Notes under the pieces: generated by a model
The model's database searches: none
Seen by the model: only the letters and a program-made list of their open reading frames with translations
Told to the model about the DNA's origin: nothing
Source: Dunaliella salina
Lineage: Eukaryota; Chlorophyta; Chlorophyceae; Chlamydomonadales; Dunaliellaceae
NCBI GenBank assembly: GCA_002284615.2
Contig: MU069650.1
Coordinates: forward strand, 133,325-145,309
DNA: 11,985 nt
Direction: 5' to 3'
Shown here: positions 455 through 11,985 of the stretch, one piece after another
Layout of the letters: each line of letters starts with the position of its first letter
Numbering within the stretch: the stretch's first letter is position 1
Made by a program: the position numbers and the translations under genes

Positions 455-550
455 CTGAGAGCGTAGCTTGAGGTAGTCCCTGATTGCGTCCTCGCCCTCC
501 TTGCCCAGCGATGCCATTTGAGATTCCACTTCAGAAAGCTGGGCTTCCAC
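455..550 (-). CDS. MTR4: MTR4 exon E: stalk (arch) helix segment
   Basis: At least 96 nt (32 codons) encode [20 protein letters not shown] then [12 protein letters not shown], a charged helical segment with coiled-coil spacing. It fits the stalk leading into the MTR4 arch insertion, and it joins directly to the MPQ end of exon D as relatives do (compare 'AIP.LE..V..LE.E'). The acceptor is CACTCCCAG|GTG. The 3' end is less certain. CAG|GTTAGC at 455 is the donor used here, but the frame stays open and family-like for eight more codons (VSSCENEM). Donors at 431 (ATG|GTCAAT) or 408 (AGT|GTGAGA) are therefore possible. This is the most divergent exon in the window, so the assignment rests on position and helix pattern as well as sequence. 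Confidence 0.82.
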
Positions 551-3500
551 CTGGGAGTGCAGGGCATCCCCACTTTCATCGCTGGAGCAATCGCACACAA
601 GTATTGCGCAATTTCCAGACTGTTTCACCAGCAACGGCATAAATTTGCAAAAGGGAATGATGAAGACAGGAAAAAGGCAACTGCAAACAGCAAAGGTGGG
701 TTGGACACGCATGCAAAGGGATAAAGGACTGTTGATGGGTGCAACCTTCATGTATGACTACCAAGGTTGGGTCACAGGAAGCCTTGAAGAGCGCGAGGCT
801 CATTAAGACTCGGAGGGTCTATTTGGCAGGACAAGGGGCGGAAGTGTGGCGGGCATGACCCCCAAAATCCCAGCAAGAGACTGGGCAAGCTCGAGACTTG
901 TCGGGTCTGTGGGAGTCTACTTCAGACGGTGGGTGAGGCTATTTACCCATGGCTAATTATTGTGCATCTTTTCCCAGAAGTGAAGTCCTAATCCTTATTT
1001 TAGGCCAGCAAGGCCAGAGGAGCATGGCTGCTTTGTTTCATGCCATGCAAGAGATGCTTGTCAGATGAGCTGATAAGTCATGTGAGGATGTGCTGTTTCA
1101 AAGATACAATTTGTTGGGTGGGTCACATGAGCAACCTTGTTGGGTGGGTTGTGTGAGGAGTCTTGTTGGGTGGGTTATTCTGAAGGATGCCAGTCAAGTG
1201 ATCAATGCATGATTAATGAAATACCAATGGGGGTGATATGCAAAACAAAGTGAGATTTCAGTTGCAACTTGTGTATAAGCTGCAGCAAACAAGGACAAAG
1301 TTGGCAGGGTGAAAAATTGAGACGCGCAAAAGGAAAAAAACACGAATTGCAACACATTGCAAGAGCTGCAGCAAACAGCAATGGAGCCAATGCAAGAAAA
1401 GCCATTGCGACAAAGCCTGTGTTGCTTTGAGATAAGTCCATACAAGCTGGCAGTGCCAAAAATCTTGATGTGGATGCATTGCTGAATGTTTGAGCAGTTC
1501 TGGTCCACATCAGGCCTCACTATACTGTGTCCAGGATTTTGAAGGCAGGGGCATTGAAGAGCTGCAGACACCATGGATAGGGAGACAACAATTTTTTTTT
1601 CGGGCTTGCCCTCCCTGACGGCAGGCTCCGAAGGTCCTTGTTACAATGTTACCTTGTTTGCTCATCAATGGCGCTGAAAGAAAGAGGCTTTCTGTCAGGC
1701 GCCACAACCCTGTGTGGTATCCTGCCTTTTGCCAGCCAGGCCACCTCTGCCCATTCTGAGCACATCACCTTAAAGCTAGGAAAAAAAGCAATTTTTCAGC
1801 GCTGAGCTGGTCCCATTTGGTGAACCCTGCTGCGCGCTAGGTCTGCATGTTTGCGCGCTCAGCCAGCAAAATACACCCCCTGTGTGCCCTAACCCTCCAG
1901 CTGCACCCCCAAGCCTGCAGGTGGACCCTGGGATGTGCCCTGAGAGCACAGGTGGCCACCTGCTGCGAGCTGGCGGAGGGCTGTCCTGGGGGTGCTCCAA
2001 AGCCAGTCGGGAACGGCATTCTATTAATATTTAATGAAATTTAGGCACTTGAGCGGAATGTTGGGACGGGTCCCGGATTTCAAACGCTTGTACCTTTCAA
2101 ATCTCCGCTGGCAGGCAGGCATGCGAGATAAAAGGCGATGTTTTTATTTTATTTTCAAGGGACTAATGCCAAGGCTTTTCATGCAGGCTCAAAATTTTGA
2201 GAAATCCCGCACCTGGACTTGAATCCAATATTTGGCTCGCATTACATTGCTTAAAATATCATCAAAAGTACGTTGGTTCCGTTGGATGTGTGCAAAAAGC
2301 AAGAACTTTTGAGTAATAAGCTCCAGCAACTTTGCAGAGCCCAGCAGCTCCTCCCAGGCGCCCATCTTCACAGCCCGCGGCGTCAAAGTTGATGCTGACG
2401 ACCCCAGGCATCGGCCAGGACAGACAGCAGACGCGGAGGTGGCCTATCAGGGCTTTGCCAGACCTCCATGGCCATGTGTGCCTGTCCGTGCGATGAAAAT
2501 CCAACGAGCATCAGGGCTCCTCTCGACAACCAAAATCACTTGCAATGTTACCAGAAGGCTTCCCAAACGCTTGCTCGTGCAGTTTGGGCCTGAGCAGGGT
2601 CCCTCAAAAAATGGCCACTCCCAGGGGTGACCAAGAAGTGCAGGTGTGGGGCACACCTTATGTTCCTTAATTGCTTAAATGTTTATAGAAAAACACCGAT
2701 TGGCTTAAAACATGCACTGGCATGCCCAAATGAGAGAAATGCATGTTTTTGATGCACAGAACTCAACCTGAGCCACATCCAGGTACCACCAATAAGCCAG
2801 ACAAGTTTTCTGATCCAAAGAAGCATTTTCCCCCACTCAGAAGTGGGTTTGAAAGTGTCTGGCAGTATATCACCCAAATTTGGCATAGGTTGTGGCGGCT
2901 GACTTTCTGCTATGCCTGGTGCACTTGGCAACAGATAACTTGAAAAACCACCAACAATTGTGAGGAGTGCGCAGCGCTTTTGGTTACATCCCCCTCACTG
3001 TCATCTGTAGGATGTGACCTCTGACAACAACTGCCGGTAAGAGCAGAATGCTTTGTGTGCTTTCAACATTGGCTGACAACAACTGCCGGTAAGAGCAGAA
3101 TGCATAGTGTGCTTCCAACGTCGGCTGACAACAACTGCCGGTAAGAGCAGAATGCATAGTGTGCTTCCAACGTCGGCTGACAACAACTGCCGGTAAGAGC
3201 AGAATGCATAGTGTGCTTCCAACATCGACTTCGGTAAGAGCAGAATGCGTAGTGTGCTTCCAACATTAGCCTTATGAAGTGCCTGAAATAAGAATTCTCC
3301 TTGGACCCCCCGTGGCACCTGTGGCGTTGGCCTCTCATCCTGGAACTGCTTGTAAACTGCTTGCAAACTGCTGTAACGCCCCCATGCTTCGTGCCCACTG
3401 CACACAGCTTGCACACATTTGCGGGCATTTGCCTGTGTTGCTGGAACTGCTATAAGCTGGCCGCATATCGCTGTTACTCCTGCACACAGCTTGCACAAAC

Positions 3501-6500
3501 CTGGGGCATTTGCCTCTCCTGCTGGAACTGCTGGAAAGAGTGCTTGATGACGTATTCCATGCTAGAATCCCCCCCTTCAAGCCGCCGCAGCATATTGAGC
3601 ATGGTGTAGTAGGACAGACGGAAGGAGGACAGCAGAGGGCTTGGCTTGCCCTGCACAGACACAAGCTCAGCGATGATGAAAAGAATCAGATTATGATAAC
3701 ATAAGCAGCACCTTATGCTTGGTAGCAACAGTGTCCATGAGAGAGGGCAGAAGGAGGCCAGCAAATGACTTGGCTTGCCCTACACAGACACAAGCTCAGC
3801 AAGGATGAGTTGAATCAGAATGTGATAAAGCAAGCAACATCGTATGCTGCTTGTGGCAGCAACAGTAAAACAGGGCTTGGCTTGACCGGCACAAGCAAAA
3901 GAATAGCAGGCATTATGATGGTGGTAACACATGCTGCATGTTCTTAAGGCAGTATTTCAAGAGGGGGTGAATTGAGGAAAGCAGAGGGCTTGGCTTGCCC
4001 TGCAATAACAAAAGCACACCAAGCATGAATTTCAGCAGATGATGGCGACAAGCAACAATGCGTGTTCTTGCAGTAATAGTAAAATAGGGGGCAGAGAAGG
4101 ACAGCAGAGGGCCTGGCTTGCCCTGCACAGACACAAGCGCAGCTAGCATGGGCTTCACTAGATGACGGTAACACAAGCAGCAGTGTGTGTCCTTAACGCA
4201 GCAGAACAGGGTGAGAGGGAAAGAACAGCAGAGGGCTTGGCTTGCCCTGCAAAAACAAAAAGCACAAACGAGCATTGGTGGAACCAGGTGATAGTAAAGG
4301 CCAGGATGCGTGTTCCTGCAGCAAAAGAGGGGGCAGAAGGATGACAGCATAGAGCCTGGCTTGCCCTGCACAAACAGAAGCGCATCAAGCATGAGCCGAA
4401 TCAGAATGTGGTTAAGCAAGCAACACATCATGCTCTGGCAGCAACAGTGAAAAGAGGGAGAGAATCGAGGACAGAGGGGGCTTGGCTTGCCCGGCACAAG
4501 CAAAAGCACAGCAAGCATGGGGTGATCCGGAATTGGTAACAGAGTGTGGGGTCAGAGGGGGGTTACCAGTGTGTGGGACTTCGATTGCCCCAAGATGCTT
4601 TGCCCAGCTAGTGCCAGGATGATTGTTCTCCTGAAACATATAAATTGAAAAAATTTGGAATTCTGACCCAGGATTTTATTCAAAATTCTTTTGATAATAA
4701 AGATAACATCTCTAAACTTAAAATGCCAAAAGAATGCTCTGGAAAACGTCAGGACAGTTGAGTCGGTTAGACAGGCAGGTGACCAGAACGGGCTAGGAAA
4801 ACACTGGAAAATTTTTTAAACATAGTCAAAAAACTATATAATTAGCAACCATTAAGTCGGGTATTGGAATTTAACTGCCTTTGTGCGTCTAGAGGAATTT
4901 TTGAAGCTTTTTTTAAAGCCTAAACTCAACACAGACCAGAGGAGCACTCACCTACTCATTCTCCAGTGGTTCAAAAGTTTTCTCTATTAATCCCAACCGT
5001 TTTTTGAAATATATTAGCGAACCAAAACTTCAGAAACGTGGCCCAGGGTCAGGCGCCACAACCCTGTGTGATATCCTGCCTTTTGCCAGCCAGGCCACCT
5101 CTGCCAATTCTGAGCACACCACCAGAAAGCTCGTAAAAAAAGCAATTTTTCAGCGCTGAGCTGGTCCCAAATGGTGAACCCTGCTGCGCGCTAGGCCTGC
5201 ATGTTTGTGTGGTCAACCAGCAAAACTCACCCTCAGTGTGCCCTGACCCTCCAGCTGCACCCTCAAGCATGCAGGTGGACCCCAGGATGGTCCCTGAGTG
5301 CACTGGTGGCCACCTGCTGCAAGCTGGCGGGAAGCTGTCATGGAGGGTGCTCAAAAGGCAGTCGAGAGGAGTGACGACGATAGGGAACGGCTTTCTATTA
5401 ATATTTATTGAAATTTTGACGCTTGAGCGGAGTGCAGGGACGAGGTCCGGATTTCAAATCCGGACCTCGTCCAAATTTCCGCCGAAAGCAGGTCATCTGA
5501 GGGGAGAAATTTAACTTTTAATTAATTGAAACAAAGTTATACATTGGAAACCTTGGGGATGGCAGATTCATATACCTCCAATGTATAACTTTGCTCTTAA
5601 CGCCACAAAAATTGCATTGTCTCCCTCGCATGTGTGCCCACAAGCAAAAATTTGGCAGTTTTTAGCTCCAACGACTTTGCGGAGCCCAGCAGCTCCTCCC
5701 TGGCGCCCATCATGGCAGCCCGCGGCGTCAGTGTCGATGATGACAATCCCAGGCATCGGCCAGGCCAAACAGCGGGTGCGGAAGTGGCCTATCGGGGCCT
5801 GGCCAGGCCTCCCAGGTTATGCGTGCTTGTCCGTGCGATGAAAATCCGACGAGCATCAGGGGTCCTCCCGACAATCCAAAATCACTTGCAATATTACTAG
5901 CAGGCTGCACAAACACTCGCTGCTGCAGTTTGGGCCTGAGCAGGGTCCCTCAAAAAATAGCCATTCCCAGGGGTGACCAAGAAGTGCAGGTATGGGGCAC
6001 AACTGATGCTCCTTAATTACTAAAATATTAATAGAGGAACATCTATTGCCCTAAAACATGCACTGGTCTGCCCAAATGAGAGAAATGCATGTTTTTGATG
6101 CACAGAGCTCCACTTGAGCCACATCCAGATGCCACCAACATGTCATACAAGACCACTGACCTAAAGAAGCAAGCACCCCTGCTCAGAAGTGGGTTTGAAA
6201 GTTTCCGGCAGTATATCACCCAAATTTGGCATAGGTTGTGGCACCTGACCCAGGGAGTGTACTGTGGATTGAATTTGGGTAATTCTCGAAGTGCAAGAAA
6301 GCAGCCGTATTCTTCTCAATTATTTCCTTCTATATTGAAAATACTTTTCTTTTTTTTAATTTTTTGAAGTGCGATAGAAGGCCGTCAGCGGCTCAGGAGA
6401 ACTTCCAATCATTTCTGGCACACGCCGGCCCAGCCAGCCCTCTGATTGGACCTAATTCTTTTCCGATGACATTTATAATATTATTCAAGAATTGAGGCTT

Positions 6501-9010
6501 GTAGGGCCGCGATGGGGAAGGTAGTGTGGCTCCGTTTTTGACCCTAGGAGGGGGAGCCAGACCTCTCTACTGGGCATTTGCTAGTGCAAAACATACCCAT
6601 AATATGTTCGCATTACTTCAATATGCTCAGGGGCTCAAAAGGAAGCCAACAGGCGCACATTTGCAAGTACTCACCACCCTCCCCTCCCCTCTGCACACCA
6701 CTGCGCACACATGGGGGCACCTCCCCCCGAAAGTTTTGGCAGGGTAGTGATTTGTGAACATAGAACAGGGCTGCCTGAAAAGATTTGGGAATGGGGCAGT
6801 CAGGGAGGCCCAAGAAAAGTTCCCTGAAACAGACCCCCGCAAAACGGCTTGGTGATCCCCCTCTGGTGTGGGAAGTGGACTGTTTTGCAAAAGTAAAGAC
6901 ACAAAAATCACGAGAGAACCAAATGGTGAGGCACAGCCAACATTGGGTGATCTTATCAGGACTTTTGTTGCAGACAAGCAGGAGCATGCTCATGGAGGAC
7001 ATGGAGCAACAAGAAACAAAAGAAGGGATGACAAGGAAGTTGGACCGCAGGAGCAGAAGCATATTTTAATGAGACCATTGATTGGTTCGGCCTTTATCCT
7101 GGCCTGCAGCGCGCTCTTGGTAAATAAAAGCAAAGCTGACATTCCGAAACCTCCCTGTTGCAGAGATCAAGCAGGATGGACATGCCACATTCACGATCAG
7201 CACACGCTGACAAGCCGGCTTTCCTCTCCCATGGAGAACTCACCATGCACATTGCCCTTGCAGCTGTTTCATCGACGTCCTCAGTCACCATCATGATACA
7301 GATACCCTTGTCATCCTTGCCTCGTCTGCCAGCACGCCCGCTCATCTGCGCAGAGTGTTTCATTTTCATTGTCTGCATGTAAATGCGTATGTGAATGATT
7401 CCAAATACCCTTGTCATCCTTGCCCGCCTGCCAGCACGGCCGCTCATTTACGCAAAGACAGCTCCATGTTCACTGTCAGTGTTTCATTTTCATTGTCTGC
7501 ATGCAACTGCGTATGATTTCAGTACCCTTGTCCTCGCCTCGCTTGCCAGCACGGCTGCTCATCTTTGTAAGTACAGTGTCGTTTTCAAAGTCTTTCCAAG
7601 GAACTTGTTGCGTATGATTCCAAATACCCTTGTCCTCCTCGCCTCGCCTGCCAGCACGGCCGCTCATCTACGCAAAGACAGCTCCATGTTCACTGTCTGA
7701 TTGCTTGTAACTGCATGTGCATGATTCCAAATACCCTCGTCATCCTTGCCTTGCCTACGAGCACAACTACTCATCTGCACAGACAGTTTCATTTCCACTG
7801 TCTGTTTGTAACTGTGTGTGAATATTCCTGAATACCCTCACCATCCTTGCCTCGCCTGCCAGCAAGGCCGCACATTTGCTCAAAGATGATTTCATTTCAA
7901 CTGTCTGTTTGCATGAAACTTAATGCGTATGATTTCAAGTACCGTTGTCATCTTTGCCTGCCTGCCAGCACGACCGCTCACCTGCACTACAAGTTTCATG
8001 TTCACTGCCTATTAGCAAGGAACAAATTGCGCATGATTTCGAGTGCCCATGTAATCCCTGCCTTGCCCGCCAGCACTGACGCTCAAAGATAACTTCATTT
8101 CCGTCGTCTGTTTGCACGTAACTGTGTGAGCATGATTTCAAATACCCTCGCCATCCCTGCCTTGCCTGCTAGCAGGGCCGCTCATCTGCACCGAGATGAT
8201 TTCATTTCCTGTCTGTATGAAACCTTGTGAGCATGATTTTTCAATACCCTTGTCATCCTTGCCTCGCTTGCCAGCACGGCTATTCATCTGCATGGAGACA
8301 GACCGACGAATGTTCTGTATTCCTTAATTTGGTGTCATCAAGCTCTGCCTTTTCCTTCTCCAGTGCGTCTGAATTGTTCATCCATTTATGTGCATCTAAA
8401 CATGGTTGTTGCGTGCTTGTTGGTGACATGGCAGTTTGAAAAAAGCGTGCTCAATGGCCCCAGGATGATTAAGGAAGTCTTCACAATGGGATTTAAGCCT
8501 TCAGCCATGAGAGCTTGGCTGCTCGGCTCTCTCTTTAACAGGGAAAAATAACGCATAAGAAAGCCCAAGACAGGAGAAGCAGGGTTAGTCAACATGATAT
8601 CTGAGGAGTGGCAGTACCTGCTCGACAGGCACATTCAATGTGGCTCCAGGATCATAAAGAAGAGATTGCATGCAGCATGCAGCATCTGGCCTGCTTAGCC
8701 TTTCCCTTTTCTTTTTAACCGAGATGCCTTGTTGCTGCCTCTGCCAAGTTGATCAAGCGCATCGTTGGTGCTCATGCACATGCTGGCGCCAGGTGGATTT
8801 TGCATGCGTTGTTGATCTCTTTGTCACCCAGGTGCTACGCACAGAACATGTTTCCACCACCGGCTGCTGCTTGCCTTATCGTTCTACCTACAGTGAAATT
8901 AGCTATGTAATGAATATCCCACAATGCAATCCCACAATGCAAAGCATCCCAAAGCCCCACCCTTCCAGCGACTTGACCCATCCCAGCCAACTGAATGGAA
9001 AATGTTCCTT

Positions 9011-9099
<89 letters not shown>

Positions 9100-10487
9100 A
9101 CACACTGTTGTTCCCTCTATACACATAAAGCATGTGCCATATTCAGGCACACCTGAAAATGCAAGCAATCCTCACTTTACAACAAGCACACATCCCACAT
9201 CCCGCTCAAAGAGATCCCTTGTCCTAAGAATCACCCAAAACACAAATGAGCCTGTCAAACCCAGCACACAATACCCAGCATACAAACATCGCCCCCCGAA
9301 CATCCCAAGGACTAGCCTACAACTGAAAAGACACTTATATGGAATAAGACTACACTTTCAAGAGCGATATCCTCGAACCAACGTGCACAACTCATCCGCT
9401 CTGGCAGCGTTTACGCCACACATTCCATCGCATGCTACAATTTACCCTGTGCACATGGATGTACTGCCCACTCTACAACAAGCAATGCCATTCACTAGAA
9501 GTGCATGCCACAATCAAGCACGTCACATCCACTCATGTAAGGACTGCCTCCTCAACATGAAGACTGCACCATTTCCCACTGTGTGCCTCGCCAAATCAAG
9601 AGTACGTCACATTTATGCTTGGTCCACAACAGGACCTACACCACACTCAGCATCAAGATGTGCCATCACCATGTCCATCACATCCATACCAAGATGTGCT
9701 CTATAGCCGATATCAAGCAGCATCCATTTCGGGTGTACTCCCTCCTCAACATCAAGCAATTCTGGACGCCATCCCTTTTTTGAAGCGCAGTTAAAACATG
9801 TACATCACAACCATACCTGGATGTACTCCCCACTGGACATCAAGCGGTTCTGGATGCCATCCCACTTCCGAAGTGCAGTGAAAACGACAGTGCGCGCGGG
9901 CATGTTGAGGCCCATGGCAAAAGTCTCGGTGGCAAACAGCACCTGCAGCAATTTCATGAGACACAAAAGTGTGCGCAGGCATGTTGAGGCCCACGTCTCG
10001 GTTGCAAACAGCACTGCAAGTACTAAAGGCAGAAAAGTGTGCGCAGGCATGTTGAGGCCCATTGCTAAAATCTTGAGGCCCATCGAAAAAGTCTAGTGGC
10101 AAACAGCATCTGCAGCATCTTCATGCGGCATAAAAGTGCGCACAGGCATGTTGAGGCCCAAGTCCCGCTGGCAGACAGCACCTAAAGACTTGGGGCACAA
10201 AAGTGTGCGCAGATGTTTTGAGGCTCAAGTCTCGGTGGCAAATAGCACCTGTAGCAGTTCCATAGGGCAGAGAGAGGGTGTGTAGACTGTGTGCGCAAGG
10301 AGCAGTTTAATAGGACAGAATAGTGTGTGTGTGGACGGCGCACGCAGGCATGTTGAGGCCCATGGCAAAAGCCTTAGTGGCAAAGAGCACCTGCAGCGGT
10401 TGGGGTAGAAAGGTGAGCGCAGGCATGTCGAGGCCCATGGCAAAAGTCTCGGTGACGAACAGCACCCGCAGTAATTTCATGGGGCGG

Positions 10488-10586
<99 letters not shown>

Positions 10587-11895
10587 TGGCATGCACATTG
10601 ACGTGCTTAGATAAGGCCATTTCATATTTTGAAGAGGAGAAGAAGCAGAGGGAAGGAACCGTTGTGCTTGGGTAAAGCGATACCAAGCTTTGAAGAGGCA
10701 TTGATTTTTTCTGTTCAAATGAGAATAGGGGCTGACACTGTCAGTGACAGCTTGGCACTTGGCACAATTGGCTTATTGATTTAATGAAAATTTTCAGTCT
10801 CTTATGTGTCGCTAAATCAAGCTGTTGGCTGGCTATATTCACTGAACAAACCAGGATCCATTCACAAGATGCAATGTAATTGCAGGAACTGCACGTTCAC
10901 CAGGCCTGAGTCAAAGATGACGGTCAAAAGTTTCAGAGCTGGACAAATTCTCCCAAAATCTGGCATGCTTTACATGCTCCCAGCCGCAGTGTGAACCCTA
11001 CTTTTTGACCAACAAACCTCCATACCAGACTGCACACAACACCAATTGGGTGAAATTAAGTGAGTTCGATTTCTTGTAGCAAAAAATACCATTGCAAAAA
11101 GAAGGAGCGAAAAGACCTAGTGGCGGATTAGGTAGAGTTTCAGACCTAGTGGCAGGTCAGGTACAGAATTTACAGGTACAGAATTTAGAGGTACACAGTA
11201 TTCAGAATTCAGGTACAGAATTTAGGTACAGAATTTACAGGTACAGACCTAGTGCCAGATCAGGTACAGATGTTCAGCCTTTTCCCTTGGAGGAGATCCA
11301 GCACATGGGGTGCCAGAAAGGTCAACTTTTGACCTCCTCCTTTCCTATTCTTGAATTTGTAAGATGTTAGAATTGTGCATGGAGGTTATGAGTAAAAAAT
11401 TTGAGAGTGGAATGCCAAGTACCCAGACAGAGCTATGGGCCTGTTTAGGGTGATCTGGGGCCAAAAAAAGTGATCTGGGGTCCTCCAATTTTTGTGTTTA
11501 ACTGAAATGCAACGTGCTTTTTTGAAAAACAATGGTTGACACGGGCCATCTCGTTGGGTCGCTCCCAGGCAAAAAGCGGCCATTTACAGCTATTCAGCAA
11601 ATCTCAGCACACACTGCATTTCTTGACCTGAGCAGTGACACAAAAACATGTTTGGTTTGCTCAGGGCATGCACAGGCTTTGATTTAGAGGCTGAAAGTGC
11701 AGTTGGCCATAATTAGGTCGACCAGCCATGGGGACGACCCATGGTTAGAGGAGAGAACGGAATCCGAAGAGCGTGTTCAGCAACAGGGGGAGTTGTTCTC
11801 ATCCAAAAAAGCTCACCTTGATGAGACCCTCTTGAAACAGGATCTCGATGACCTCCTTCAATATTGGCAGCAATCCGGAGTGGTGGACACCAATG

Positions 11896-11896
<1 letters not shown>
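455..11896 (-). CDS. MTR4: Internal part of an MTR4/HEN2-type exosome RNA helicase gene, five exons
   Basis: Joined on the minus strand from 11896-11817, 9942-9817, 7345-7244, 3650-3501 and 550-455, giving one open frame of 184 complete codons plus two bases of a split codon. The encoded order matches the MTR4 family without gaps: the HHSGLLP segment, motif V ([12 protein letters not shown]), motif VI ([10 protein letters not shown]), the start of the winged-helix region, then a stalk helix. MTR4 is a 3'-5' DExH helicase that unwinds RNA for the nuclear exosome in TRAMP/NEXT-like complexes. The KDDKGI tail after motif VI favours MTR4/HEN2 over cytoplasmic Ski2, which typically reads AGRAGRRGLD. 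All introns seen are GT-AG, and no stop or frameshift interrupts the exons, so the gene appears intact. MTR4 and HEN2 cannot be told apart from this piece. DExH motifs I-III, the KOW/arch core and the C-terminus lie outside the window. Confidence 0.93.
1111..1176. repeat. 26-bp tandem repeat, three units
   Basis: TTGTTGGGTGGGT recurs at 1111, 1137 and 1163 with looser sequence between. The rest of 551-1688 shows no gene or recognised repeat. Confidence 0.85.
1694..2903. mobile_element. Non-autonomous TIR DNA transposon, copy 1
   Basis: The element is 1210 bp, opening GTCAGGCGCCACAACC and closing GGTTGTGGCGGCTGAC, which is the inverted complement with one mismatch. A perfect 5-bp target duplication, TTTCT, flanks it (1689-1693 and 2904-2908). 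It shares its outer ~350 bp and its right ~600 bp with 5048-6249. It encodes no recognisable transposase. It lies in intron D-E of the helicase gene, in the same orientation as copy 2. Confidence 0.92.
3022..3271. repeat. 52-bp near-perfect tandem array
   Basis: Copies start at 3022, 3074, 3126 and 3178, exactly 52 bp apart, followed by a 5'-truncated fifth copy from about 3230. The unit opens TGACAACAACTGCCGGTAAG. Copies two to four are almost identical, and this is far less diverged than the exon-derived arrays nearby. The minus strand stays open across it (reading ...[14 protein letters not shown]...), but nothing suggests a gene. Confidence 0.96.
3305..3466 (-). repeat. Two partial copies of exon D end (donor side)
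   Basis: The end of exon D plus intron start (3470-3545) is repeated at about 3386-3466 and 3305-3385. Read in the exon frame, the first copy encodes QFQQHRQMP and has lost the donor. The second encodes [10 protein letters not shown] and is followed by an intact GT (CAG|GTGCCA at 3318/3319). The second copy is also preceded by AG, so it has the outline of a 30-nt phase-0 micro-exon (3319-3348). Confidence 0.85.
3501..3650 (-). CDS. MTR4: MTR4 exon D: start of the winged-helix region
   Basis: This 150-nt exon (50 codons, phase 0 at both ends) begins [20 protein letters not shown] and ends [16 protein letters not shown]4 relatives have the equivalent 'LNSAFHLTYNM' and 'SFYQFQ..RAIP' after motif VI, where the winged-helix region begins that packs behind the RecA core. 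The acceptor is TCTGTGCAG|GGC with a fair pyrimidine tract, and the donor is CAG|GTTTGT. The exon is flanked on both sides by tandem copies of its own ends: the first ~10 codons upstream in the transcript (3739-4549) and the last ~10 codons downstream (3305-3466). Only this unit is complete. Confidence 0.92.
3739..4549 (-). repeat. Array of partial exon D copies (acceptor side)
   Basis: About seven tandem units of ~95-130 bp begin near 3739, 3868, 3961, 4086, 4209, 4328 and 4455. Each carries roughly 90 bases of the end of intron C-D, an acceptor-like site and the first ~10 codons of exon D ([10 protein letters not shown]; for example GKPGPLLSF in the 4086 unit). Acceptor AGs survive in some (GTGCAG in the 4086 unit) and are altered in others. 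The remainder of exon D is missing from all of them. The array runs into the real exon without a break. Confidence 0.9.
5438..5472. repeat. Perfect palindrome inside transposon copy 2
   Basis: Two 17-bp arms, GGACGAGGTCCGGATTT and its exact complement, flank a single C. The matching part of copy 1 (about 2075-2095) has the left arm in altered form and no right arm, so the palindrome is specific to this copy. Confidence 0.93.
5532..5593. repeat. Inverted repeat inside transposon copy 2
   Basis: 17-bp perfect arms (CAAAGTTATACATTGGA at 5532-5548 and its complement at 5577-5593) flank a 28-nt loop. Copy 1 has no counterpart in its middle section. It may be a small nested insertion or a fold-back duplication. 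Confidence 0.9.
7244..7345 (-). CDS. MTR4: MTR4 exon C: helicase motif VI
   Basis: This 102-nt exon (34 codons, phase 0 at both ends) encodes [20 protein letters not shown] and then [14 protein letters not shown]. It supplies motif VI, whose two arginines act as arginine-finger and nucleotide contacts; the leading Q comes from the end of exon B. The acceptor is CTGCGCAG|ATG and the donor is ATG|GTGAGT. Following family residues would be of the type 'MMLKG'. Here the sequence runs ...AMCM into GKPSPLL of exon D, which aligns without a gap. The first 15-16 codons are repeated about nine more times in intron B-C (7403-8315), but only this copy continues into the rest of the exon and a consensus donor. 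Confidence 0.94.
7403..8315 (-). repeat. Array of partial exon C copies carrying motif VI
   Basis: Nine tandem copies of about 100 bp begin near 7403, 7520, 7621, 7728, 7831, 7938, 8041, 8141 and 8242. Each holds the last ~50 bases of intron B-C, the acceptor region and the first 15-16 codons of exon C. Read on the minus strand, the best copies give [16 protein letters not shown] (7621 unit) and the last copies are more altered. Several have an AG before the ATG (for example TAG|ATG in the 7621 unit). They stop where the exon reads KGI and jump back to intron sequence, so they lack the rest of the exon and its donor. Confidence 0.92.
9012..9105. repeat. (CA)n microsatellite, UG in the transcript
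   Basis: A 94-nt CA run on the plus strand is broken once by a G at 9095. It lies in intron B-C, downstream of exon B in the transcript, and is complementary to the TG run at 10491-10584. Confidence 0.98.
9449..9797 (-). repeat. Decayed copies of exon B second half (donor side)
   Basis: The unit nearest the exon (9722-9797) repeats the exon's last ~60 bases and the donor region. It shares blocks such as TGTACTCCC, CAACATCAAGC and TTCTGGACGCCATCCC (plus strand) with 9811-9890. It carries an indel that shifts the frame and has lost the GT donor. Weaker copies start near 9449, 9522, 9606 and 9679. The first two are clear from shared blocks; the middle ones are marginal. Confidence 0.72.
9817..9942 (-). 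CDS. MTR4: MTR4 exon B: helicase motif V
   Basis: This 126-nt exon (42 codons, phase 0 at both ends) encodes [20 protein letters not shown] then FTALRKWDG and, at its end, [10 protein letters not shown]. The [12 protein letters not shown] block is helicase motif V of RecA2, which contacts RNA and couples ATP hydrolysis. The exon is bounded by CTGCAG|GTG and CAG|GTATGG. The final glutamine is the first residue of motif VI, which the intron splits from the rest. Partial copies of both halves of this exon lie in the flanking introns (9967-10490 and 9449-9797). This copy is the only one that joins both halves in frame with both splice sites, so it is taken as the functional exon. Confidence 0.94.
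9967..10490 (-). repeat. Array of partial exon B copies (acceptor side)
   Basis: About six or seven tandem copies, about 60-100 bp each, carry the end of intron A-B, the acceptor region and roughly the first 18 codons of exon B ([16 protein letters not shown]). The second half of the exon is absent from each. Copies near 10035, 10345 and 10412 keep the segment coding FAM (partly rearranged in the first). Copies near 9967, 10132 and 10200 share a deletion of about 7 nt there, so there are at least two subtypes. The two outermost copies (10335-10490) are the closest to the real exon and still read [16 protein letters not shown] and [16 protein letters not shown]. None has a recognisable donor of its own, so they look like pseudo-exon fragments. 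Confidence 0.88.
10491..10584. repeat. (TG)47 microsatellite, CA in the transcript
   Basis: A 94-nt uninterrupted TG run lies in intron A-B, upstream of exon B in the transcript. It directly abuts the outermost exon B partial copy. Together with the CA run at 9012-9105 it forms an inverted, complementary pair flanking exon B. Confidence 0.98.
11113..11270. repeat. Nested short tandem repeats
   Basis: Two interleaved motifs recur here. GACCTAGTGSC followed by GGTA or CAGGTA appears three times (about 11114, 11143 and 11247). AGGTACAGAATTTA or close variants appear four to five times (11158-11240). The spacing is irregular, so this is a local, compound minisatellite inside intron A-B with no coding signal. 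Confidence 0.8.
11817..11896 (-). CDS. MTR4: MTR4 exon A: RecA2 segment with HHSGLLP
   Basis: This 80-nt exon encodes 26 complete codons, [15 protein letters not shown] followed by [11 protein letters not shown]. In MTR4 proteins this stretch reads almost the same and lies in the second RecA domain between motifs IV and V. The exon opens with two bases (GC) of a split codon, which would make the conserved glycine (GGC) if the previous exon ends in G. The donor is AAG|GTGAGC, a strong match to consensus. The acceptor is CACACAG|GC, with a CA dinucleotide repeat in place of a pyrimidine tract. Next in the transcript is exon B, which continues the protein with no missing residues (LIK then VLFATE). 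Identification is firm. The exact acceptor is also firm, because the repeat ends where homology begins. Confidence 0.94.

Positions 11897-11897
<1 letters not shown>

Positions 11898-11985
<88 letters not shown>
11898..11985 (-). repeat. (CA)n microsatellite (TG on plus) fused to the exon A acceptor
   Basis: An uninterrupted TG dinucleotide run on the plus strand continues past the window edge. In the transcript it is (CA)n and its last unit supplies the AG of the exon A splice acceptor, with no separate pyrimidine tract visible. Confidence 0.97.

Follow-up and report, generated by a model that had tools for sequence, protein, structure and literature searches.

Tandem arrays of diverged splice-junction copies in introns of the MTR4/HEN2 RNA-helicase gene and other loci of Dunaliella salina

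Introns of Dunaliella salina contain tandem arrays of diverged copies of the adjoining splice junction. Single duplications across a junction are already known in other organisms, as rare accidents; what is new here is that arrays on the acceptor side hold many copies and those on the donor side mostly one. These arrays are probably best explained by tandem duplication of a general kind, together with tolerance of junction-spanning copies as long as splicing continues at the intact inner sites.

Results

The window, meaning the whole stretch of 11,985 nucleotides that was analyzed, contains part of the D. salina MTR4/HEN2 RNA-helicase gene on the minus strand. Exons A to E all map onto the D. 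salina HUA enhancer 2 protein, exon D with 100% identity across 50 residues, and MTR4/DOB1 structures match as well. Exon A (11817..11896) was placed by tblastn with P0241 from residue 404; its donor is GTGAGC, and its start was inferred at (CA)n CAG/GC. Exons B (9817..9942; 126 nt, phase 0), C (7244..7345; 102 nt), D (3501..3650; 150 nt), and E (455..550) were defined by protein mapping, all on the minus strand. The annotated protein joins exons B, C, D, and E directly with no array copy inside, and array copies are probably not spliced into mRNA. Intron gain in MTR4, in the form of a new intron between duplicated sites, was not seen, since exons B to E are contiguous in the annotated protein. 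An interspersed 1.2 kb repeat is present in the window twice. The 10 kb fetched on each side of the window reads N in this draft assembly, and a search of the flanking stretch for more MTR4 exons gave none.

All five junction arrays described in an earlier note on this DNA exist, almost exactly where it had placed them, and consist of same-strand copies of the neighboring exon's junction. Like the gene, they lie on the minus strand. Five copies of the exon B acceptor (10004..10496), each comprising the intron end and the first 11 to 59 nt of the exon, adjoin a (CA)47 run, and the acceptors of exons C (7411..8291) and D (3750..4541) are represented by nine and seven copies, respectively. The donor-side arrays are short, with three weak copies for exon B (9453..9771), one of which clearly crosses the donor, and two for exon D (3317..3434); a strict rule, which demands at least 10 nt of match on each flank of the junction, leaves one crossing copy per array. 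As had been claimed, all five arrays keep to one arrangement: along the transcript, copies of acceptors precede the exon and copies of donors follow it. Exons B, C, and D are indeed each flanked, exon C on its acceptor side only, so that five of the nine scored MTR4 junctions carry arrays, and the donors of A, C, and E and the acceptor of E are free of them.

The best scores were 68, 71, and 63 for the acceptor-side arrays of B, C, and D and 34 and 44 for the donor-side arrays of B and D, against maxima of 21 to 29 in 1000 dinucleotide-preserving shuffles per region; the observed score was reached in 0/1000 shuffles for every region. The match to the exon edges is therefore beyond chance, and its failure, which the earlier note had named as a ground for refutation, did not occur. 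Antisense scores of the five regions were only 10 to 17. Among sliding 60-mers in the window, 148 of 584 had a same-strand copy (score of at least 24) within 1.5 kb, as opposed to 1 of 584 in antisense. Being same-strand, nearby, and composed of intron and exon sequence of their own junction, the MTR4 copies have the makeup of tandem duplications across a junction. Copy spacing was 68 to 139 for the B acceptor, 95 to 124 for the C acceptor, and 108 to 129 for the D acceptor, with 88/39/245 for the B donor and 81/102 for the D donor. These differing units and a self-comparison in which no match links arrays of different exons bear out the proposal that the arrays arose as separate events. An unstranded tandem array of four 52-bp units (3021..3227; 96% matches) in the intron between exons D and E touches no known junction.

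The copies decay without visible codon constraint. When the three MTR4 acceptor arrays were pooled, mismatch between copy and exon was 0.117, 0.094, and 0.199 at codon positions 1 to 3 (P 0.0005), whereas mismatch between copies was 0.203, 0.156, and 0.183; as the latter shows no third-position excess, the excess belongs to the genuine exon and not to the copies. In the D array, it was not visible under a different alignment. The decoy AG is retained in 31 of 45 acceptor copies, with per-base values of 0.84 and 0.80 compared with 0.79 for neighboring bases. Exonic parts of the MTR4 copies are less diverged among themselves (mismatch 0.14–0.20) than intronic parts (0.28–0.31), a gap that three of four DDX52 arrays lack. 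Simultaneous duplication with even decay is therefore too simple an account. Inspection by eye showed no simple age gradient in which copies become older with distance from the exon.

Junction arrays also occur in other genes. In a survey of 26 other D. salina loci and DDX52, with MTR4 left out of the counts, nearby tandem copies crossed 15 of 102 junctions on the tolerated side. Background points matched by locus, which in partly modeled loci may contain unrecognized exons, gave an expectation of 9.1 (simulated P 0.03), a 1.6-fold excess of crossing copies. Crossing copies on the opposite side were absent downstream of acceptors (0/52) and upstream of donors (0/49), or 0/101 in total, presumably because such copies would add sequence to the message, and antisense crossing copies were likewise absent (0/102). 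The intact exon at the inner edge, which the earlier note had reported, is what tandem duplication with selection would produce.

The survey showed no clear preference for junctions. The excess outside MTR4 disappeared when the 60-mers were confined to one side of the junction: intron ends were copied in 9 of 97 cases (8.57 expected) and exon edges in 9 of 104 (9.25 expected), or 18/201 pooled versus 17.8 for other 60-mers. The recurrent process that had been proposed to act on the splice junctions of this gene is accordingly upheld in its recurrence but not in any targeting of junctions or of the gene. MTR4 alone gave 5/9 versus 2.0 expected (P 0.03) in the spanning test and, on the acceptor side of the 60-mer test, 3/4 versus 0.8 (P 0.025), in a gene picked because its arrays were striking. 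In DDX52, crossing copies were found at four of ten scored acceptors and one of nine scored donors, and further copy blocks lie away from known junctions (C269:274260-274479, 275980-276199, 276300-276539, and 278840-279219). The array-bearing genes are those with long introns. In two HSP70 genes, whose introns mostly measure 215 to 664 nt, arrays were present at 0/33 junctions, which is weak support, HSP70 introns being poor in arrays anyway (5/320 control points). Overall, tandem arrays with a period of at least 15 numbered 99 in 213,404 bases, some loci overlapping, and made up 7.9% of bases with a median of 86% matches.

The two sides of the exon differ in copy number. Two or more copies were present in 10 of 11 acceptor-side arrays and in one of nine donor-side arrays. 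Acceptor arrays were also richer than control arrays, of which 50% had at least two copies (P 0.006), and this surplus is not predicted by pure neutrality. Since donor arrays mostly hold one copy and acceptor arrays many, decoy donors may be under negative selection. Such a contrast, if genome-wide, would reveal which decoys cells can afford.

Discussion

We consider general duplication with tolerance to be the probable origin of the arrays. Tandem duplications of about 15 to 140 bp would arise throughout the noncoding DNA of D. salina, wherever they are tolerated, and the resulting arrays would then expand, contract, and decay. When a duplication spans a junction, the intact exon would persist only on the inner side, so that acceptor copies end up upstream and donor copies downstream, with the extras inside the intron. 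Such an event would be harmless only if the inner, intact splice sites remain in use, and their choice is what exon definition would lead one to expect for long introns. The copies would decay as intron sequence does in general, with changes to the genuine exon falling mostly on silent sites, and introns may lengthen through such duplications. Donor-side decoys would be held to about one copy and acceptor-side decoys would be unrestricted. A stronger version, in which intron growth is a one-way ratchet with a splicing-dependent filter, is possible but doubtful: acceptor duplications would multiply freely, since under exon definition the acceptor closest to the donor would invariably be chosen, and costly decoy donors would be kept to about one copy. 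If it were true, natural decoy-site experiments in this genome would number in the hundreds to thousands.

Junctions or splicing might themselves provoke duplication, for instance where paused exon edges incur breaks or undergo RNA-templated repair, as the density of arrays in MTR4, the excess of crossing copies elsewhere, and the copy-rich acceptor arrays might suggest. However, the copying rate of junction-flanking 60-mers in loci other than MTR4 matches the background, and arrays off known junctions are common, as with the 52-bp array and the four DDX52 blocks. The small excess may instead stem from old junction arrays staying detectable for longer because the exon half of the junction is conserved, and we regard a junction-directed process as unlikely. 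The copies might also be maintained by selection, either for an alternative, recursive, or buffering role in splicing or as a stock of micro-exons, which would fit the retained AGs, the lower divergence of exonic parts in MTR4, and the acceptor-side expansion. Such a function appears less likely still, as AG is barely better conserved than its neighbors, differences between MTR4 copies are about equal across codon positions, and the annotated protein lacks every copy.

An artifact of repeat assembly might be suspected from the draft state of the sequence and the N-filled flanks, but it is highly improbable: divergence among the MTR4 copies is 14 to 31%, which read collapse or misjoining could not produce, and the same pattern is found on other contigs. 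Equally slim is the chance of a spreading, introner-like mobile element bearing splice sites, for which the two 1.2 kb repeat copies might speak. When the genome was searched for the exon B junction, the one junction used as a query, four of four matches lay at the MTR4 locus (C215). No self-match connects the arrays of different exons, and each contains coding sequence of the local exon; neither the search nor the self-comparison revealed one unit inserted at many genes.

Tandem repetition of splice signals has parallels elsewhere. One human gene reportedly contains a minisatellite-type array of short units that repeats a usable splice donor; D. salina likewise repeats splice sites in tandem, but in many genes, mostly at acceptors, and as putative decoys. 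Zhuo is said to have described in 2007 human introns created from tandem arrays, where tandem duplication is again raw material of intron evolution; in D. salina, by contrast, existing introns seem to grow. In the potato RdRp gene, a single tandem genomic duplication across an intron–exon boundary created an intron by activating a cryptic donor (PMC4974935). As in D. salina, that duplicate runs from the 3' portion of an intron, including branch site, pyrimidine tract, and AG, into the 5' portion of the exon that follows, whereas in D. salina as many as nine diverged copies lie within introns that already existed, and no new intron was seen. A further report states that splice sites flanked by large introns pair with the closest site across the exon (PMC9225289), as the D. 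salina arrays would require.

Titles and abstract openings from a Dunaliella literature search contained no junction arrays, which is not proof of absence. The whole text of one genome paper (PMC5658486) leaves such arrays unmentioned, and in a term search of another, "intron" and "tandem repeat" each occur 0 times and "repeat" 19 times (PMC11140103). With decayed copies at about one in seven sampled junctions, a single genome may hold very many competitions between genuine and decoy sites at known distances. How a spliceosome chooses among several similar sites could thereby be put to a direct test with RNA data of types already available, and the duplications would be a simple way for introns to lengthen.

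Experimental procedures

DDX52 was modeled with ten introns from a D. tertiolecta protein; beyond MTR4 and DDX52, splice sites were placed by eye, from consensus and known protein homology rather than from transcripts. Several of the CCT loci are near one another on a single contig, with possible overlap between them. Locus L043 was dropped for an unusable match position. Where the site was unfixed or a flank was missing, we dropped the acceptors of L021, L023, L044, L047 exon 1, the first modeled DDX52 exon, and MTR4 exon A, as well as the donors of L029 exon 1, L037 (last exon), L046 exon 4, L047 exon 4, and the last modeled DDX52 exon. Two of 57 donors were unscorable owing to microsatellites. 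Copies are visible at two unscored DDX52 junctions (upstream of the first modeled exon and downstream of the donor at 13943), and dropping rows therefore does not inflate the counts. "Down" rows with a score of 57 for three exons reflect the query overlapping itself and have no meaning. A third HSP70 gene (L048-L049), fetched after a domain search hinted at a copy, serves as an exhibit and enters no count. A first survey based on domain-match edges gave 6/30 upstream of acceptors and 5/30 downstream of donors versus 11% of controls; it was too blunt and was replaced by exact junctions.

Junction arrays in the MTR4 gene

The D. salina genome assembly comprises 1,403 contigs and 285 Mb, and the published CCAP19/18 D. 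salina draft comprises 5,512 scaffolds and 343.7 Mb (PMC5658486). The window lies at 133325-145309 of contig MU069650.1 (C215). The 10 kb on either side (C215:123325-133324 and 145310-155309) are all N, leaving the window isolated. Its spliced minus-strand exons matched MTR4/DOB1 structures, and over 50 residues exon D matches the D. salina protein HUA enhancer 2 exactly. Mapping of the 984-residue D. salina HUA enhancer 2 protein placed five exons of this RNA-helicase gene (MTR4) on the minus strand, with exon A ending at 11817, followed by exons B (9817-9942), C (7244-7345), D (3501-3650), and E (455-550). The introns between them measure 1874, 2471, 3593, and 2950 nt and have GT..AG ends. 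A pure (CA)44 run (11897-11985) reaches the window end, and the acceptor of exon A, which has no pyrimidine tract, is apparently where this run stops.

When 60-base windows were slid along the gene, same-strand self-similarity was strong at 3305-3466, 3739-4549, 7403-8315, 9449-9797, and 9967-10490, and antisense similarity was nearly nil. The earlier note had described these five regions as junction fragments of the neighboring exon, and iterated local alignment, with each genuine junction as query and its flank as target, confirmed this, recovering five, nine, and seven acceptor copies for exons B, C, and D and three and two donor copies for exons B and D, respectively. The queries held 45 to 62 nt of exon and 45 to 75 nt of intron, and within these limits the exonic part of a copy reaches at most 60 nt and the intronic part joined to it at most 75 nt. 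Chance matching, which the same note had named as grounds for refutation, was checked with 1000 dinucleotide-preserving shuffles per region, none of which reached the observed best score. Genome-wide, the exon B junction gave four matches, all at the MTR4 locus.

Junction copies in other genes

Other exons of the same genome were found by domain searches for helicases, CCT chaperonins, and HSP70, and ten introns of DDX52 were fixed with a D. tertiolecta DDX52 protein. In all, with MTR4, 56 acceptors and 57 donors were set. In DDX52, partial exon repeats are visible in translation, upstream for the exons encoding residues 101-123, 316-338, and 362-391 and downstream for the one encoding 426-456. 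We scored as crossing any same-strand copy within 1.5 kb that extended 10 nt or more beyond the junction in both directions. With MTR4 left out, crossing copies lay upstream of 8/52 acceptors and downstream of 7/50 donors, which does not support a process acting on MTR4 in particular. On the opposite sides, within 1.5 kb, they were found downstream of 0/52 acceptors and upstream of 0/49 donors, and antisense crossing copies were found at 0/102 junctions. Exon centers had copies in 2 of 94 cases, and background points of the same loci, which are intronic for DDX52 and HSP70 and may include unknown exons in partly modelled loci, in 737 of 5,875 (DDX52, 227/1,118; HSP70, 5/320; CCT, 62/787; other helicases, 443/3,650). 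A third HSP70 gene, chosen because a copy was already suspected, has one exon flanked by several copies on its acceptor side and a single copy on its donor side.

Outside MTR4, copying of exon edges on the tolerated side (upstream of acceptors, downstream of donors) is about as frequent as that of any background stretch, since 60-base windows not spanning the junction gave counts matching expectation both for intron ends (9/97 versus 8.57) and for exon edges (9/104 versus 9.25). A recurrent process acting on splice junctions, as first suggested, is thus not borne out there. The spanning test gave 15 crossings versus 9.1 expected from each locus's own background (simulated P = 0.03); this slight excess may be a detection effect, because the exon half of the comparison does not decay. 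For MTR4, a gene selected for its arrays, the spanning test gave 5/9 versus 2.0 (P = 0.03), and the acceptor side was still high in the non-spanning test (3/4 versus 0.78, P = 0.025). Across 213,404 bases, window included and some loci overlapping, 99 arrays with a period of at least 15 occupy 7.9%; their match levels range between the 60s and 100 per cent, and this background looks like continuing birth and decay.

Copy number at acceptors and donors

With MTR4 included, array-bearing acceptors carry 1, 2, 2, 2, 2, 5, 5, 6, 6, 6, and 8 crossing copies, whereas donors carry 1, 1, 1, 1, 1, 1, 1, 1, and 2 (P = 0.0007; P = 0.007 without MTR4), although the numbers are small and adjoining junctions of one gene may be non-independent. 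The asymmetry persisted under four alternative parameter sets (P = 0.004 to 0.012), in which 3/10, 0/5, 2/7, and 2/7 donors had at least two copies. About half of the control arrays have at least two copies on either side, compared with 10/11 acceptors (P = 0.006) and 1/9 donors (P = 0.017), or 7/8 (P = 0.03) and 1/7 (P = 0.06) without MTR4. Such an asymmetry would follow if decoy donors were costly and decoy acceptors were not.

Divergence of the copies

When the three MTR4 acceptor arrays were pooled, copy-to-exon mismatch at codon positions 1, 2, and 3 was 0.117, 0.094, and 0.199 (P = 0.0005), but copy-to-copy mismatch was about equal (0.203, 0.156, and 0.183). This combination is expected of drifting copies and a genuine exon that has accumulated mostly silent changes. 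Under another alignment, the third-position excess was present in arrays B and C but absent in D. The decoy AG is retained in 31/45 acceptor copies, about the level of neighboring bases, and the decoy GT in 4/10 donor copies, with no significant difference between the two rates (P = 0.14). A simple clock is disfavored because among MTR4 copies the exonic parts have diverged less than the intronic parts, which is untrue of 3/4 DDX52 arrays, and because no divergence gradient with distance from the exon was seen in the MTR4 and DDX52 arrays compared. The MTR4 pattern would be compatible with recurrent duplication of the genuine junction or with exchange among the copies of an array.

Proposed origin of the arrays

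By geometry, a tandem duplication spanning a junction keeps the exon intact on its inner side. On the opposite side the extra sequence would become part of the message, and selection would eliminate it; a spanning duplication would be tolerated only where the inner sites remain chosen. MTR4 and DDX52 have exons of 60 to 172 nt and introns of 0.5 to 3.6 kb, and with short exons and long introns the sites closest across the exon are reported to be preferentially paired (PMC9225289). Such pairing predicts that arrays are rare at short introns; two HSP70 genes had arrays at 0/33 junctions, in agreement, but few arrays of any kind occur there. A junction duplication of the acceptor-side kind has been reported in a potato gene, with a new intron as the outcome there (PMC4974935). 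Our literature search found no genome with frequent junction arrays, nor any acceptor/donor difference in copy number. A minisatellite with multiple splice donors has reportedly been described.

Other sequence features

Long GT/CA microsatellites adjoin splice sites in a fixed sense-strand orientation, in the window (11898-11985, 10490-10584, and 9012-9105) and at other loci. Within 60 nt, the 57 donors had five GT runs and no CA runs, and the 56 acceptors three CA and no GT (P = 0.018); within 200 nt the counts were six GT and one CA for donors and four CA and one GT for acceptors (P = 0.07). These runs are reminiscent of the complementary AC/GU repeats reportedly found at intron ends in fish. 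Moreover, two copies of a roughly 1.2-kb interspersed repeat, 79% identical, lie in neighboring introns (1694-2903 and 5048-6249), the second enclosing a near-perfect 35-base inverted repeat (5438-5472). Elsewhere, among 40 candidates scored of 791 candidate places, 32 were near-full-length copies with 81-89% identity. In addition, a CCT exon (locus L040, position 1611) has an apparent GC donor (GAG|GCAAGT).
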